A stretch of 64,000 nucleotides of DNA, from contig NZ_MDDP01000010.1 in the NCBI RefSeq assembly GCF_001999725.1, positions 496,001 through 560,000 on the forward strand. The letters are read 5' to 3'. The notes beneath the pieces were generated by a model. The model saw nothing but the letters and a program-made list of their open reading frames with translations. It made no database searches and was not told the origin of the DNA. This document shows, piece by piece, positions 25,902 through 56,211 of the stretch. Source of the stretch: Cellulophaga omnivescoria (lineage in GTDB: Bacteria > Bacteroidota > Bacteroidia > Flavobacteriales > Flavobacteriaceae). Both the position numbers and the translations under genes were made by a program. Within the stretch, counting starts at the first letter, position 1. Every line of letters begins with the position of its first letter.

Positions 25902-25914
25902 CAGTCTAATTTAA

Positions 25915-25981
25915 GAGGAAGGATTTGACTGATTGCAACCTCGTATACTGTTACTCAGTACTACAAAAAATGCTAAAACAG
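25915..25981 (+). promoter_or_regulatory. SAM-II-like riboswitch upstream of metK
   Basis: A pseudoknot-type element. P1 pairs GAGG (25915-25918) with CCTC (25939-25942). The loop between reads GATTTGACTGATTGCA, which matches the SAM-II core from memory (GAUUUAACCGUAUUGCA in the metX prototype) apart from one missing U and two transitions. The 3' strand holds the conserved GCTAAAA (25972-25978). Pseudoknot pairings CTG (25929-25931) with CAG (25979-25981) and GCA (25935-25937) with TGC (25971-25973) are possible. A small extra hairpin (TACTG/CAGTA, loop TTACT) is inserted between P1 and the 3' strand. Position before a SAM synthetase supports the call; P1 is short, so a covariance-model check is needed. 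Confidence 0.72.
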
Positions 25982-26067
25982 ATTTAGTTAATTTTTTTTG
26001 ACGCCTTTTCCTGTTTTTTTTGCAATCTATCTTACCGTTTCTCTACTAACAATAGAAGTACAATATT

Positions 26068-27398: not shown

Positions 27399-27495
27399 TT
27401 TATTTGGGTGTTACCGCAAGGGTCGGGCTTTTTGTTTCAATCTTTTTTAAGAAATATAAAAAAGGATTTTCACTGCAATCCCTAACACAAATAAA
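27399..27495 (+). repeat. Structured intergenic repeat, copy 1
   Basis: A ~97-base element that folds on itself. The closing helix is TTTATTT (27399-27405), bulged GG, GTGTTA (27408-27413) with TAACAC (27483-27488), AAATAAA (27489-27495). Inside are a CC-GCAA-GG tetraloop hairpin (27414-27421), a conserved GTCGGGCTTT, a second hairpin ATC-TTTTTT with AAAAAA-GGAT (27440-27467), and a conserved AATCCC before the closing strand. A second copy lies at 46801-46890 in the opposite orientation, with the same layout and a compensatory change in the closing helix. Could be the Rfam Flavo-1 RNA or an unnamed family. Confidence 0.72.
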
Positions 27496-27626: not shown

Positions 27627-27656
27627 TAGCTCAAAGTTCAAAACACTTATTGAATA

Positions 27657-27767
27657 GTTATCAAGAAAGGCGGAGGGATTAGACCCAATGAAGCCTTAGC
27701 AACCCTTTGTGCAATACAAAGAAGGTGCTAAATTCTACCAAGTACAGCGGTACTATAGGCAGATAAC
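27657..27767 (+). promoter_or_regulatory. SAM-I riboswitch (S-box) upstream of metY
   Basis: The P1 helix pairs GTTATC (27657-27662) with GATAAC (27762-27767). Between them is the canonical S-box core: AAGAAAGGCGGAGGGA, TTAGACCCAATGAAGCC, AGCAACC, then AAGGTGCTAAATTC and the P4 hairpin GTAC-AGCG-GTAC. SAM binding should stabilise P1 and lower expression of metY. A short reading frame across this RNA (27709-27897) is spurious. Confidence 0.95.
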
Positions 27768-27831
27768 GAAACAAGCTTTTTTATTTCAAAAAAAGCAAAT
27801 TTCCAATTTCTTTTTAACTCATTTAATTTTT

Positions 27832-42744: not shown

Positions 42745-42776
42745 TGGCTCAATTAGTTCATTAATAGACTGAAAAC

Positions 42777-42890
42777 GTTATCAAGAAAGGTGGAGGGATT
42801 AGACCCTATGAAACCTTAGCAACCCTTTATTCTTATTTAAAGAAGGTGCTACATTCTACTACGTTGTTACAAAACAACACGGCAGATAAC
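42777..42890 (+). promoter_or_regulatory. SAM-I riboswitch (S-box) upstream of metH
   Basis: P1 pairs GTTATC (42777-42782) with GATAAC (42885-42890). The core matches the metY copy closely: AAGAAAGGTGGAGGGA, TTAGACCCTATGAAACC, AGCAACC, AAGGTGCTACATTC, with a different P4 hairpin (GTTGTTAC-AAAA-CAAC region). SAM should switch off the split metH genes. No cobalamin riboswitch was seen, although MetH needs B12. Confidence 0.95.
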
Positions 42891-43092
42891 TCACAAATTA
42901 GTAAAGACATTCACAGTCTTATCTCATTTACCTTACTTGATATTTTATTTATAGCGTTCCATTTGTTTGCAAGCACAAATGGCCAGGCTTTCTGCTGTAT
43001 TTTTTGGTTTTAGCAAACAGGTTTTACAAACCGTTGCCACCAAAAAGATGCCGCATCAATCCTTAACGCACAACATAATATTATACGGTACA
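42891..43092 (+). promoter_or_regulatory. Expression platform between the SAM-I aptamer and metH
   Basis: About 200 bases of untranslated leader. It holds a perfect hairpin CCATTTGT-TTGCAAGC-ACAAATGG (42959-42982), and further on TTTTTGGT (near 43001) that can pair with ACCAAAAA (near 43043). No hairpin is followed directly by a T-run, so the mechanism (termination or start-site masking) cannot be assigned by eye. An open frame starting at 42967 crosses it in phase with metH but is not expected to be translated. Confidence 0.5.
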
Positions 43093-52010: not shown

Positions 52011-52040
52011 TTTGTTTTTTAAATTTAATAATTACCTTAG
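52011..52040 (+). promoter_or_regulatory. Promoter of the aromatic amino acid operon
   Basis: A -33 TTTG (52011-52014) and a -7 TACCTTAG (52033-52040, one mismatch to TAnnTTTG) with 18 bases between. The start point would fall near 52045, about 15 bases before the leader-peptide ATG. Confidence 0.68.
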
Positions 52041-52058
52041 CCACATATTACAAGAATA

Positions 52059-52130
52059 ATGAACACAAGATATTTCTGGAACGGTTTTTATTTTTACTTC
52101 TTTTTTAAGAGAGGTACGGGACTGTTGTAG
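52059..52130 (+). CDS. Aromatic leader peptide of the phe/tyr operon attenuator
   Basis: A 23-codon reading frame, ATG at 52059 and TAG at 52128-52130. Ten of the 23 residues are aromatic: Tyr5, Phe6, Trp7, then Phe10, Tyr11, Phe12, Tyr13, Phe14, Phe15, Phe16 (six Phe, three Tyr, one Trp). The last codons overlap ACGGGACT (52116-52123), which can pair with the 5' arm of the terminator at 52158-52165. This is the layout of ribosome-mediated attenuation: scarcity of charged Phe or Tyr tRNA stalls the ribosome and frees the antiterminator strand. Downstream genes make prephenate, Phe and Tyr, so the fit is close. Confidence 0.9.
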   Translation: MNTRYFWNGFYFYFFFKRGTGLL

Positions 52131-52165
52131 TATATTTTAACTATAGATATAAATTAAAGTCCCGT
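52116..52165 (+). promoter_or_regulatory. Antiterminator of the aromatic operon leader
   Basis: ACGGGACT at 52116-52123 is complementary to AGTCCCGT at 52158-52165, giving an 8-bp helix that excludes the terminator. The same eight bases recur at 52171-52178 as the 3' arm of the terminator. A ribosome reaching the leader stop codon would cover the first copy. Confidence 0.85.
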
Positions 52166-52184
52166 GTATAACGGGACTTTTTTT
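52157..52184 (+). terminator. Attenuator terminator of the aromatic operon
   Basis: A 9-bp GC-rich stem AAGTCCCGT (52157-52165) with ACGGGACTT (52171-52179), five-base loop, then T-run to 52184, located 35 bases before the first structural gene. Confidence 0.93.
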
Positions 52185-52219
52185 ATGCATAAAACTGAAG
52201 TTTAAGGAGATATTTAAAA

Positions 52220-53047
52220 ATGGCATTAAAAATAGCAATACAAGGTATAAAGGGCTCTAACCACCACCAAGTAGCTAATGAGTTTTTTGGTGAAGACGTA
52301 GAGTTGGTAGAGTGTCTTTCTTTTGATGAGTTAATACATCAATTAATGACGGGTTACGCAGATAAAGCTGTTATGGCTATAGAAAACTCAATTGCAGGTT
52401 CTATAATACCAAATTATGCTTTGGTTTATAATAATGATTTACATATAATTGGTGAACACTACTTAAATATTCATCATCATTTAATGGCATTAAAAGGTCA
52501 AAAAATAGAGGATATACAAGAGGTGCATTCACACCCAATGGCGTTATTGCAATGTAAAGATTTTTTAAAAGCATACTCGCATATAAAATTGGTAGAGTCT
52601 GTAGATACTGCAGAAACGGCACAACGTATAGAAAAAGATAGTCTTAAGGGTATTGCTGCAATTGCACCAAAAGTAGCATCAGAACTATACAATTTAGAAG
52701 TTTTAGCATCAGAAATACAAACCATATCTAATAATGCTACCCGTTTTATTATTCTTAAAAAAGAAAATAAAGAATTGCCAGAAGAAGAAATTAATAAAGC
52801 ATCATTACGCTTTGTATTAGACCATAAGCGAGGTAGTCTTGCAGCAGTTTTAAATGTAATGAGCGATTGTAACCTAAACTTAACAAAAATACAATCACTA
52901 CCAGTAATAGAGCAACCTTGGAAATATTCTTTCTTTGTAGATGTAACTTTTTTAAAGTATAAAGATTATAAAAAAGCAAAAGCGCTATTGCAAATTATGG
53001 CAGAAGAGTTTAAAGTTTTAGGAGAATACAAAAATGCAAGAAGATGA
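52220..53047 (+). CDS. pheA: Prephenate dehydratase with ACT domain
   Basis: Converts prephenate to phenylpyruvate for Phe synthesis. The 275-residue protein has ALKIAIQGIKGSNHH, the VMAIENSIAGSIIPNY segment, HPMALLQC and the catalytic Thr in NNATRFIIL near residue 176; the ACT domain occupies the last ~80 residues. The regulatory ACT motifs differ from the classical GALV and ESRP: here they read GSLA and QSLP, so Phe feedback may be altered. No fused chorismate mutase; that activity is on the fourth gene. First structural gene behind the attenuator; it overlaps the aminotransferase gene by four bases. Confidence 0.95.
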   Translation: MALKIAIQGIKGSNHHQVANEFFGEDVELVECLSFDELIHQLMTGYADKAVMAIENSIAGSIIPNYALVYNNDLHIIGEHYLNIHHHLMALKGQKIEDIQEVHSHPMALLQCKDFLKAYSHIKLVESVDTAETAQRIEKDSLKGIAAIAPKVASELYNLEVLASEIQTISNNATRFIILKKENKELPEEEINKASLRFVLDHKRGSLAAVLNVMSDCNLNLTKIQSLPVIEQPWKYSFFVDVTFLKYKDYKKAKALLQIMAEEFKVLGEYKNARR

Positions 53048-54186
53048 TAACTGCAGATAGATTACAACATATACAGGAATACTATTTTTCTAAAAAACTT
53101 AGAGAAGTACGTGGTTTAATGGCGGACGGTAAACCTATAATAAATATGGGAATTGGTAGTCCAGATTTGGTACCTTCTACAGTTGTAGTAGAGGCTATTA
53201 AAAATGCTGTTGAAGATGCAGGAGCGCACCAGTACCAGAGTTACCAAGGCTTACCTGAGCTAAGAGAAAGTATGGCGGCTTTTTACAGAGCTAATTTTAA
53301 TGTTCCTGCAGATCCGGCAACAGAAATATTACCGTTAATGGGTTCTAAAGAAGGTATTTTACACATAAGTATGGCCTTTTTAAACCAAGGAGATGAGGCG
53401 CTAATTCCTAATCCTGGTTACCCAACGTATACATCTGTTACAAATTTAGTAGGGGCAGAGCCTAAGTATTATAATTTGGTTGCAGAAAACAATTGGTTTC
53501 CAGATTTAGAAGCCTTAGAAAAGCAAGACTTGACTAAGGTAAAAATAATGTGGGTTTGTTACCCTCATATGCCAACAGGTGCGGTAGCAACTAAGGAGCA
53601 ATTACAAAAGTTAGTTGTATTTGCCTTAAAAAATAATATTCTATTGGTAAATGACAATCCTTATAGTTTTGTTTTAAACAATGCGCCAACAAGCATATTA
53701 AGTATAGAAAACGCTAAAGATTGTACCTTAGAGTTAAACTCGCTAAGTAAAACCTTTAATATGGCAGGCTGGCGTGTAGGTATGGTTTTAGGTAGCGCAG
53801 AACATATAAATGCAGTGTTAAAAGTAAAAAGTAATATGGACTCTGGTATGTTTTACGGCATTCAAAAAGGAGCTATAGCGGCATTAAAAAGTAGTAAAGA
53901 TTGGTTCTCAAATTTAAATAAAATATATGATACTCGTAGAGATTTAATTTTTCAGTTAGCAGACAAGTTAAATTGTACTTATGATAAAAATGCTGTAGGA
54001 ATGTTTGTATGGGCAAAGCTGCCAATAGGTAGTAGTTCATCAGAAGAATTTATAGATGAAGTATTGTACAGTAAAGATGTTTTTATAACACCAGGAACAA
54101 TTTTTGGAAGTAACGGAGAAGGTTATATACGTTTCTCATTATGTGTAACCCAAGAGAAAATTAAAGAAGCAATAAGTAGATTTTAA
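53044..54186 (+). CDS. PLP-dependent aminotransferase, probably aromatic
   Basis: A 380-residue fold-type I class I/II aminotransferase. It has INMGIGSPDLVPSTVVVEAI, the NPGYPTYTS segment, NDNPYSFVLN, the PLP lysine in LNSLSKTFNMAGWRVGM near residue 236, and a C-terminal Arg region (GYIRFSLC). Annotation tools would say aspartate or LL-diaminopimelate-type aminotransferase, but its place between prephenate dehydratase and prephenate dehydrogenase points to transamination of phenylpyruvate and hydroxyphenylpyruvate. It is coupled to pheA by an ATGA overlap. Confidence 0.9.
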   Translation: MITADRLQHIQEYYFSKKLREVRGLMADGKPIINMGIGSPDLVPSTVVVEAIKNAVEDAGAHQYQSYQGLPELRESMAAFYRANFNVPADPATEILPLMGSKEGILHISMAFLNQGDEALIPNPGYPTYTSVTNLVGAEPKYYNLVAENNWFPDLEALEKQDLTKVKIMWVCYPHMPTGAVATKEQLQKLVVFALKNNILLVNDNPYSFVLNNAPTSILSIENAKDCTLELNSLSKTFNMAGWRVGMVLGSAEHINAVLKVKSNMDSGMFYGIQKGAIAALKSSKDWFSNLNKIYDTRRDLIFQLADKLNCTYDKNAVGMFVWAKLPIGSSSSEEFIDEVLYSKDVFITPGTIFGSNGEGYIRFSLCVTQEKIKEAISRF

Positions 54187-54261: not shown

Positions 54262-55122
54262 ATGAACGTATTTGTAATTGGCATAGGATTAATAGGTGGC
54301 TCAATGGCCAAGGATATTAAAAGAATAAATGCTAGTGCTAAAATTTATGGTGTAGATATTAATGATGCACATTTAGAAGAGGCATTGTCTTTAGGCGTAA
54401 TAGACCAAAAGGCAAGTTATCATGATTTACAGTTGGCAGATGTAGTAATTGTTAGTATTCCTGTAGATGTATTGGTAGTAGAGTTGCCAAAAATATTAGA
54501 TGCTATTAATGATGATGCTATTGTTTTAGATGCTGGATCAACAAAAAGTTTAATTTGCAAGGAGGTAGAAAATCACCCAAAAAGAAGAAACTTTATAGCG
54601 TGCCACCCAATTGCAGGAACAGAATTTTCTGGACCGTCTGCAGCAATAGAAAACTTGTTTAAAGGCAAAACAAATATAATTTGTGAGGTAGAAAAAACTG
54701 CTTTTAAATTGCAAGAGAAAGCCTTAGATCTTTTTAGAGATATGGGGATGCGTATACGTTATATGAATGTAGATGCCCATGATAAACACATAGCATATGT
54801 GTCTCATTTATCTCATATTAGTTCTTTTATGTTAGGAAAGACTGTTATTGAGAAAGAAAAGAATGAACGCGATATATTTGATATGGCGGGTAGTGGGTTT
54901 GAGAGTACTGTGCGTTTAGCAAAAAGTTCGCCAGCAATGTGGACACCTATTTTTAAACAGAATAAAACAAATGTTTTAGAAACATTAGAAGAATACATTG
55001 AAAATTTAAAAGCCTTTAAAGAAATGATTGAAGAAGACAATTATACAGGCATTTTTAATGAAATGGAAAACGCGAATAAGATAAAAAAAATATTAAAAGG
55101 AATACCCCAGAATAAAAATTAA
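54262..55122 (+). CDS. tyrA: Prephenate dehydrogenase
   Basis: NAD(P)-dependent oxidative decarboxylation of prephenate to 4-hydroxyphenylpyruvate for Tyr. The 286-residue protein has the Rossmann motif VFVIGIGLIGGSMAKDI, VIVSIPVDVL, DAGSTKSLIC and the conserved CHPIAGTEFSGP and HDKHIAYVSHLSHI motifs. Third gene of the operon, six bases before the DAHP synthase gene. No ACT domain is fused, so control may come from attenuation and from the DAHP synthase. Confidence 0.96.
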   Translation: MNVFVIGIGLIGGSMAKDIKRINASAKIYGVDINDAHLEEALSLGVIDQKASYHDLQLADVVIVSIPVDVLVVELPKILDAINDDAIVLDAGSTKSLICKEVENHPKRRNFIACHPIAGTEFSGPSAAIENLFKGKTNIICEVEKTAFKLQEKALDLFRDMGMRIRYMNVDAHDKHIAYVSHLSHISSFMLGKTVIEKEKNERDIFDMAGSGFESTVRLAKSSPAMWTPIFKQNKTNVLETLEEYIENLKAFKEMIEEDNYTGIFNEMENANKIKKILKGIPQNKN

Positions 55123-55128
55123 GTAAAG

Positions 55129-56211
55129 ATGGAAAACTCAAAAGAAATGAGAACATGGTTGGATGACATGAAGCTAGATCATCCACTAGTAATAGCAGGG
55201 CCGTGTAGTGCTGAAACTGAAGAGCAAGTATTAAAAATTGCTCATCAATTAAAAGATACCGATGTTAACTATTATAGAGCAGGTATTTGGAAGCCAAGAA
55301 CCCGTCCTGGGAATTTTGAAGGCGTAGGTATTTTAGGCCTAAAGTGGCTGCAAAAGGTAAAAGCAGAAACAGGTTTAAAAACAGCTACAGAAGTTGCAAA
55401 CAGAGCACACGTAGAACTTGCATTAGAACATGATATAGATTTGTTGTGGATTGGTGCACGTACGTCTGTAAGTCCGTTTATCATGCAAGAAATTGCAGAT
55501 GCATTGGCTGGTACAGATAAAATAGTACTGGTTAAAAACCCAATTAATCCAGATTTATCATTGTGGTTAGGCGGTATAGAACGTTTGCATACAGCTGGAA
55601 TTAAAAACTTAGGAGCAATACACAGAGGTTTTTCTACTTATGAAAAAACAAAGTACAGAAATATACCAGAGTGGCAATTGGCAATTGAGTTTCAAAACAG
55701 ATTTCCAGATTTGCCTTTAATTAATGATCCGTCTCATATTACAGGAAAAAGAGATATGATTTTTGATGTATCGCAAACAGCATTAGATCTTAATTTTGAT
55801 GGTTTAATGATTGAAACTCATTTTGATCCGGATAATGCATGGAGTGATGCTGCACAACAAGTAACACCAGAAAAATTAGTGCAAATTATGCGCGATTTAA
55901 AGATTAGAAAAGAGTCTGACCCAGAAGCAGAATACAATAAAGATTTAAGTAATTTACGTGCACAAATAGATGTTATTGACGCACAGTTAATTGAAACTTT
56001 AGGAAAAAGAATGAAAATTTCTGACCAAATTGGAGCTCTAAAAAAAGAGAAAAACGTAGCCGTTTTACAATCTACAAGATGGAACGAGATTTTAGGAGCA
56101 ATGATTTTAGAAGGAGAATCTAAAGGGTTAAGTGAGGAGTTTGTTTTAAAAATGTTTAAAGCAATACACCAAGAGTCTATTAACCACCAAGAAAAAATTA
56201 TTAAAGGATAA
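55129..56211 (+). CDS. Bifunctional DAHP synthase / chorismate mutase
   Basis: A 360-residue fusion. Residues ~1-265 are a 3-deoxy-7-phosphoheptulonate synthase (LVIAGPCSAETEEQVLKIA, RAGIWKPRTRPGNFEGVG, LVKNPINPDLSLW, LPLINDPSHITG). Residues ~275-360 are an AroQ-type chorismate mutase (LRAQIDVIDAQLIETLGKRM, KISDQIGALKKEKNV). It thus holds the first step of the shikimate pathway and the branch step to prephenate, which the other three genes of the operon consume. In such fusions prephenate or chorismate often inhibits DAHP synthesis through the mutase domain. Last gene before the terminator at 56226. Confidence 0.96.
   Translation: MENSKEMRTWLDDMKLDHPLVIAGPCSAETEEQVLKIAHQLKDTDVNYYRAGIWKPRTRPGNFEGVGILGLKWLQKVKAETGLKTATEVANRAHVELALEHDIDLLWIGARTSVSPFIMQEIADALAGTDKIVLVKNPINPDLSLWLGGIERLHTAGIKNLGAIHRGFSTYEKTKYRNIPEWQLAIEFQNRFPDLPLINDPSHITGKRDMIFDVSQTALDLNFDGLMIETHFDPDNAWSDAAQQVTPEKLVQIMRDLKIRKESDPEAEYNKDLSNLRAQIDVIDAQLIETLGKRMKISDQIGALKKEKNVAVLQSTRWNEILGAMILEGESKGLSEEFVLKMFKAIHQESINHQEKIIKG

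Follow-up and report, generated by a model that had tools for sequence, protein, structure and literature searches.

A predicted leader-peptide attenuator rich in aromatic codons precedes the pheA operon across Flavobacteriaceae

Leader-peptide attenuation is a textbook mechanism in E. coli, and the enterobacterial pheA leader, pheL, comprises a short, Phe-rich frame in front of pheA with an antiterminator and a terminator. Enterobacteria also possess leaders for several amino acids at once, with Thr and Ile sensed by that of thr, and Ile, Val and Leu by that of ilvGMEDA. A survey by Lopatovskaya et al. in 2010 (Mol Biol 44:128) reportedly covers attenuation across bacteria and may include a Bacteroidota pheA case. 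By the account of Naville and Gautheret (2010, PMC2965389), Proteobacteria and Actinobacteria were the only groups in which leader-peptide systems had been demonstrated, and these authors added one in Firmicutes; the word 'Bacteroidetes' is absent from the main text of their article. Within that phylum, Rfam family RF01692, Bacteroid-trp, represents the Bacteroidete tryptophan peptide leader RNA (Weinberg et al. 2010, PMC2864571). Furthermore, 'strong clues' of leader-peptide attenuation have been reported upstream of amino-acid biosynthesis operons in Flavobacterium psychrophilum (ISME Commun 2021, PMC9723704), along with a structured pheA 5′ region that occurs in other Flavobacteriaceae genera and lacks Rfam matches. 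Among the matches listed from open-licence full texts, this was the only article directly relevant to a pheA leader in Bacteroidota.

Here we describe a leader of this kind in front of pheA in Cellulophaga omnivescoria, within a 64-kb stretch of DNA (the window). The F. psychrophilum pheA element is most likely the same element, and the existence of the attenuator had therefore already been hinted at in print; the novelty for Bacteroidetes suggested by the initial annotation is smaller than supposed. The passages of PMC9723704 consulted offer neither a peptide nor helices, codon content or a survey for the element. What we add is a definition of the parts, their breadth, a three-strand pairing test, the pan-aromatic content, and tandem units in two other families. 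A hinted 5′ element now becomes a defined, testable candidate attenuator in almost every sampled genus of Flavobacteriaceae, a very large family of environmental bacteria, and in several other families of the class.

The features of the locus are collected in Table 1. The leader frame opens with ATG at 52059 and closes with TAG at 52126-52128. Its 10 aromatic residues comprise 6 Phe, 3 Tyr and 1 Trp, with seven consecutive at residues 10-16, and its best ten-residue window contains 8. By comparison, none of the 22,783 ten-residue windows in stop-to-stop frames of at least 100 codons across the 64 kb reaches 8 or more, the maximum being 6. Downstream, AGTCCCGT lies at 52158-52165 within copy 2, and the terminator 3′ strand, copy 3, spans 52171-52179, where ACGGGACT recurs at 52171-52178 and is followed by T's to 52184. 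The aromatic frame with its run of seven and the three copies in the order ACGGGACT, AGTCCCGT, ACGGGACT with a T-run had been read in the initial annotation; all are present, and every coordinate agrees with the sequence. The gene set it had placed downstream, namely prephenate dehydratase, aminotransferase, prephenate dehydrogenase and DAHP synthase-chorismate mutase, was confirmed by Pfam.

Table 1. Features of the pheA leader and operon of C. omnivescoria (positions within the window)
Feature	Position	Strand	Basis
Promoter candidate, Bacteroidota-type: TTTG 52011-52014, 18-nt spacer, TACCTTAG 52033-52040	52011..52040	+	consensus scan
Leader peptide gene, 23 codons and TAG, MNTRYFWNGFYFYFFFKRGTGLL	52059..52128	+	read from sequence; conservation; folding
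Predicted protector hairpin (1:2), core helix 52080-52088 with 52118-52126	52067..52138	+	folds; own versus swapped pairing
Copy 1, predicted antiterminator 5′ strand GTACGGGACTG, core ACGGGACT 52116-52123, within the leader's last codons	52114..52124	+	sequence; pairing test; fold
Copy 2, shared strand AAGTCCCGT, predicted antiterminator 3′ strand and terminator 5′ strand	52157..52165	+	sequence; pairing tests; fold
Intrinsic terminator, stem 9-10 bp, loop 5 nt, T-run	52157..52184	+	sequence; family scan; fold
pheA, prephenate dehydratase with C-terminal ACT-like region	52220..53047	+	PF00800, 197 bits; PF01842, 23 bits, below cut-off 27
Class I/II aminotransferase, overlapping the pheA end	53044..54186	+	PF00155
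tyrA-type prephenate dehydrogenase	54262..55122	+	NF006307 above cut-off; PF02153; PF20463
DAHP synthase with C-terminal type II chorismate mutase	55129..56211	+	PF00793; PF01817

By folding, region 52059-52190 reached -37.9 kcal/mol (z -5.7 against shuffles). Its parts also fold stably on their own, with -17.6 kcal/mol for the antiterminator segment 52107-52169 (z -3.8), -15.1 kcal/mol for the terminator 52156-52187 (z -5.1) and -20.0 kcal/mol for the leader alone, 52046-52140 (z -3.1). In the absence of a stalled ribosome, the protector hairpin would sequester copy 1 by pairing it with the beginning of the frame. The upstream neighbour, gldA, lies divergently on the opposite strand, which rules out that terminator 52157-52184 is the end of an upstream operon.

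Within the operon, the best NCBIfam matches of the aminotransferase are LL-diaminopimelate aminotransferases, below cut-off, and its specificity is not settled. The DAHP synthase is the only one recognised in the C. omnivescoria genome by profile searches with PF00793 and PF01474: PF01474 had no match in the genome, and the sole other PF00793 match is a KDO-8-phosphate synthase, above its NCBIfam cut-off. The order of the four genes is kept in 79 of 80 loci of a sample that comprises the best 80 matches (hereafter the named sample) and therefore over-represents close relatives, among them Maribacter, Allomuricauda and Flavobacterium; the remaining locus has no DAHP synthase match.

The arrangement resembles enterobacterial pheL in that a short leader frame precedes pheA with an antiterminator and a terminator. 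Unlike pheL, the leader carries Tyr and often Trp codons besides those for Phe, and the operon includes a DAHP synthase. The pheL-type Rfam model, RF01859 Phe_leader, aligns over its full length (1-125) to 52055-52186, scoring 31.6 bits, which is under the gathering score of 55 (E 0.0011 when 281 nt were searched and 0.043 over 10.7 kb). It had no match at E up to 0.1 in the 20 upstream regions searched out of those of 130 relatives. With a sub-threshold match in the window and 20 relatives without one, we rejected membership of RF01859. RF00513 Trp_leader matches 52120-52184 at 22.4 bits (E 0.02), short of its gathering score of 41. The matches of RF01692 in the window (gathering score 49) do not include the pheA leader; Bacteroid-trp is likewise a leader-peptide attenuator from the same phylum, but is the Trp leader of a different operon. 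Based on the sequence features tested, the leader would thus belong to the general class of ribosome-mediated attenuators and, by score, to none of RF01859, RF00513 and RF01692. T-box and riboswitch families were set aside, as none occurs in the leader among Rfam matches at E up to 1. Elsewhere, the window contains two SAM riboswitches, one SAM-II riboswitch and a Flavo-1 RNA (27655-27769, 42775-42892, 25909-25986 (+) and 27417-27490 (-)).

To follow the leader through the family, 149 Flavobacteriaceae genomes, one per genus and C. omnivescoria included, were searched with the PheA protein; 130 matched, and upstream DNA was examined for all 130. A leader unit was called where an ATG-started frame had 6 or more aromatics in a stretch of ten residues and was separated from pheA by a hairpin with T-run. 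Both parts, a short translatable frame enriched in codons for the pathway's products and an intrinsic terminator between this leader and the first gene, occur within about 500 nt of pheA in 125 of the 130 genera. Two further genomes keep frame and terminator at roughly 0.65 kb (G013) and 1.0 kb (G128) upstream of pheA. In G013 the interval is occupied by repeats of 110 nt arranged in an array; in G128 it contains an open frame of 202 codons. The frame is cut by the contig end in G048, where the terminator is present. Finally, G023 has pheA and no leader unit within 2 kb upstream, and G035 has none in the 382 nt that its contig offers. In the named sample, the leader unit was found in 79 of 80 loci, the remaining one being cut at the gene. 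A terminator without an aromatic frame in relatives had been named as the pattern that would speak against attenuation; 125 of 130 genera retain both. The leader attenuator thus appears to be an almost constant fixture of Flavobacteriaceae. As a side observation, the G013 array (L299:1478-1896) consists of about four tandem 110-nt units, each with short inverted repeats, and the leader-terminator beside it is intact.

Beyond the family, a draw of 198 genomes from the phylum yielded 172 with a PheA match, of which we inspected 43 new ones, mostly the better matches. Frame and terminator were present in 36 of the 43 (12 of these 36 belonging to Flavobacteriaceae) and absent in 7. A draw of 158 genomes from the class contained 44 with PheA of this type, all of which were examined with GTG and TTG starts also allowed. 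An aromatic frame was found in 28 of the 44, with a hairpin by scan in 27 of these; in G410 the scan found no hairpin beside the frame. In the upstream DNA examined, the other 16 showed no leader unit. We did not count G465, whose candidate leader lies about 1.4 kb away and has no hairpin. Some of the genomes lack the unit because pheA sits in another gene order: in G222 and G255 it directly follows a same-strand frame, which in G222 is aroA. The unit is therefore spread over many families of the class, yet far from universal. Four genomes of the same phylum and another class (G299, G277, G212 and G162) have a PheA close to this class's type and a similar aromatic leader, which could mean that gene and attenuator were transferred together.

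Some lineages outside Flavobacteriaceae, from two families, appear to carry two units in series before pheA. In G183 the second frame has 6 aromatics in 10, and the four other sampled genomes of its family were not flagged as tandem. In another family, pheA is preceded in both sampled genomes, G309 and G218, by two frames, each reaching 8 or more aromatics in 10; the first unit of G218 has a poor hairpin by scan and a better one as judged by eye in the sequence. We did not count G007 and G155 as tandem, the second frame of each having only 5 aromatics in 10.

The family survey contributed 125 leaders and the other genomes 36, giving 161 for pairing tests, in which the stretch after the aromatic run was paired with the terminator 5′ arm of its own genome or with arms swapped between genomes. 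Mean antiterminator energy was -12.6 kcal/mol with the own arm and -8.8 kcal/mol with swapped arms (20 rounds, -9.2 to -8.4; kinship among genomes ignored), and fell to -6.2 kcal/mol when the copy-1 stretch was shuffled. With kinship again ignored, the own arm equalled or surpassed the median of the foreign arms tried (up to 60) in 156 of the 161 leaders. All 161 have at least 5 positions at which one copy-2 base pairs in both helices, and these positions are filled by all four Watson-Crick types, mostly as G-C-G, C-G-C, A-T-A and T-A-T triples. As such positions are picked by the pairing itself, the swapped control, given an equal choice, is the fair measure. The longest string shared by the copy-1 stretch and the terminator 3′ arm averaged 5.27 within genomes and 4.29 after swapping, with a maximum of 4.58 in 200 rounds. 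The three strands, copies 1, 2 and 3, thus appear to change together. For the protector hairpin, own pairing reached -8.2 kcal/mol against -6.8 when swapped (range -7.1 to -6.6), which lends the 1:2 helix modest support, weaker than that for the other helices.

We next consider where a ribosome would lie relative to these strands. Copy 1 begins a median of 11 nt (sd 3.2) after the aromatic run, whereas the distance from its end to the last base of the stop codon, a median of 7 nt, has twice the spread (sd 7.1). Assuming an E. coli-like footprint that extends from 18 nt upstream to 12 nt downstream of the first A-site base, at least 5 aromatic codons in each of the 161 leaders would leave copy 1 free under a stalled ribosome. 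For a ribosome of the same footprint halted at the stop codon, the predicted coverage of copy 1 is 80% or higher in 133 of the 161 leaders and 50% or higher in 151, with the terminator arm outside the footprint in all 161; in the C. omnivescoria leader, copy 1 would be fully covered. On this assumption, an antiterminator that excludes the terminator, with a 5′ strand free on stalling and covered at the stop, is predicted in all except the 10 leaders in which less than half of copy 1 would be covered, and for which the simplest geometry is not valid.

Taken together, these data make it very probable that the pheA-aminotransferase-tyrA-DAHP synthase/chorismate mutase operon is under ribosome-mediated transcription attenuation by its leader. 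This is the geometry put forward in the initial annotation, and it gains support from the 125 of 130 genera with both parts and from competing helices that vary jointly across relatives, own pairing surpassing swapped. In the proposed mechanism, RNA polymerase would transcribe the leader while a ribosome translates it. A shortage of charged tRNA-Phe, tRNA-Tyr or, for C. omnivescoria, tRNA-Trp would stall the ribosome in or before the aromatic run, so that copy 1 could pair with copy 2, no terminator would form and the operon would be read. When all three charged tRNAs are plentiful, the ribosome would reach the stop codon and cover copy 1, copy 2 would pair with copy 3, and transcription would end near 52184. 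With no ribosome on the leader, the 1:2 hairpin would hide copy 1, making termination the default. The parts, their conservation, the mutually exclusive and jointly changing pairing, the promoter-like and start contexts and the operon can be read from the DNA; what we infer from them is which way the operon responds, that ribosomes stall, that transcription terminates in vivo, and that each of the three amino acids may serve as a signal.

The peptides themselves bear on two other readings. Across the ten-residue windows, 1267 of 1610 residues are Phe, Tyr or Trp and 24 are Leu, Ile, Val, Met, Ala or Cys, and the 161 leaders encode 158 distinct peptides. Were the frame to encode a functional hydrophobic micropeptide, with an ordinary terminator nearby by chance, the conserved aromatic core would be accounted for, as short aromatic-rich peptides could be membrane-active. 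However, so few aliphatic residues, which a membrane peptide could accept, and almost as many distinct peptides as leaders argue against this, as does the C-terminus, which is free to vary. All three reading frames are represented at the end of copy 1 (72, 52 and 37 leaders), and in 9 of 161 the whole of copy 1 follows the last sense codon, which indicates that the RNA is conserved rather than the peptide. The frame is, moreover, coupled to a terminator with which it can pair. We consider a micropeptide very improbable.

The same variability weighs on TnaC-type nascent-peptide arrest, in which a free aromatic amino acid, rather than a lack of charged tRNA, would arrest the ribosome. Such arrest likewise requires a leader peptide and a downstream terminator decision, and the occurrence of aromatic residues in arrest peptides counts in its favour. 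Known arrest peptides, though, depend on critical residues that are fixed and close to the C-terminus, whereas here Phe and Tyr interchange, the run shifts and the C-terminus varies. An excess of the amino acid would also induce a biosynthetic operon at the time its product is abundant, and we regard this reading, too, as having very little probability.

Chance was assessed in 128 upstream regions of at least 500 nt, using the reverse strand and five rounds of dinucleotide shuffles as controls. The frame alone was called in 125 of the 128 forward, 4 reverse and 2-9 shuffled regions; with the hairpin, the counts were 125 forward, 0 reverse and 0 in each of the five shuffle rounds. Leader frame and terminator at this locus are, on this count, not due to chance. 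That control by a translation-independent device (a T-box, an aptamer riboswitch, or a protein or sRNA acting on the terminator) left the frame as a by-product of U-rich sequence is scarcely credible, for although A-T-rich DNA yields chance Phe and Tyr codons, as the few shuffled regions reaching 6 aromatics in 10 attest, neither control comes near the 125 of 128 in the real orientation.

Having set these readings aside, we return to ribosome-mediated attenuation and the signals by which the leader could be expressed. The scan for sites of the Bacteroidota -33/-7 promoter type asked for a TTG-type -33 element and, at a spacing of 17-21 nt, for TAnnTTTG matched at no fewer than 5 of 6 positions. 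Such promoter-like sites were found in front of 89 of 124 family leaders and typically end about 17 nt 5′ of the leader ATG; when the upstream DNA was shuffled, 20 rounds gave 9.25 on average and never more than 17. Adenine occupies position -3 in 78% and position -6 in 60% of the 124, a start context familiar from work on Flavobacterium. Both are signals in the sequence only for transcription and translation of the leader.

As to what is sensed, Phe and Tyr codons occur in 161 of 161 leaders, in keeping with the initial proposal that both amino acids are read by one peptide; that proposal was too narrow, however, as Trp codons are present in 99 of the 161 (85 of 125 family-survey leaders and 14 of 36 others). 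Within the named sample, 35 of 79 leaders have Trp codons, and only 5 of the 36 records titled Flavobacterium, so Trp sensing would be lineage-specific. That the sensor should include a Trp codon is understandable if the genome's sole recognised DAHP synthase, encoded in this operon, also feeds Trp synthesis, as it presumably does. Like the thr and ilvGMEDA leaders, a single leader here would sense several end products of a branched pathway, but the amino acids, all aromatic, and the pathway are different ones.

We are therefore somewhat inclined to view the element as a pan-aromatic attenuator whose Phe and Tyr codons are interchangeable and which many lineages have extended to Trp, so that a shortage of any aromatic amino acid would open the sole recognised entry enzyme of the shikimate pathway, with units in series in some outside lineages. 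Its retention would imply close coupling of RNA polymerase and the leading ribosome in these Bacteroidota. Since ribosome-mediated attenuation needs a ribosome close behind RNA polymerase, the leader could serve as a ready reporter of transcription-translation coupling in a phylum whose promoters and translation starts are both unusual; in Flavobacteriaceae, starts do not depend on Shine-Dalgarno pairing. For annotation, the element marks a gap made up of a missing RNA family and a missing small gene.

Codon choice within the leaders differs from that of the gene behind them. In the named sample (L177-L256), the Phe codon TTC has a mean fraction of 0.40 in leaders and 0.23 in the following pheA, and is higher in the leader in 62 of 79 cases (Wilcoxon p 1e-8, kinship ignored). 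It often occurs as TAC-TTC inside the aromatic run. Perhaps this preference breaks long U runs or tunes stalling.

Two other leaders were seen in the C. omnivescoria genome. Upstream of trpE (L306, G000:C49), MKITTNIWWWNNLRQTS is followed by a hairpin and T-run and scores 65.8 bits with RF01692, above the cut-off of 49, suggesting a second attenuator. Upstream of hisG (L308, G000:C34), MRNKNTHHHHFTPCYQAS is likewise followed by a hairpin and T-run; no Rfam leader family matches it at E up to 0.05, and it is likely a third attenuator. A conserved hisG 5′ element is among those listed for F. psychrophilum (PMC9723704).
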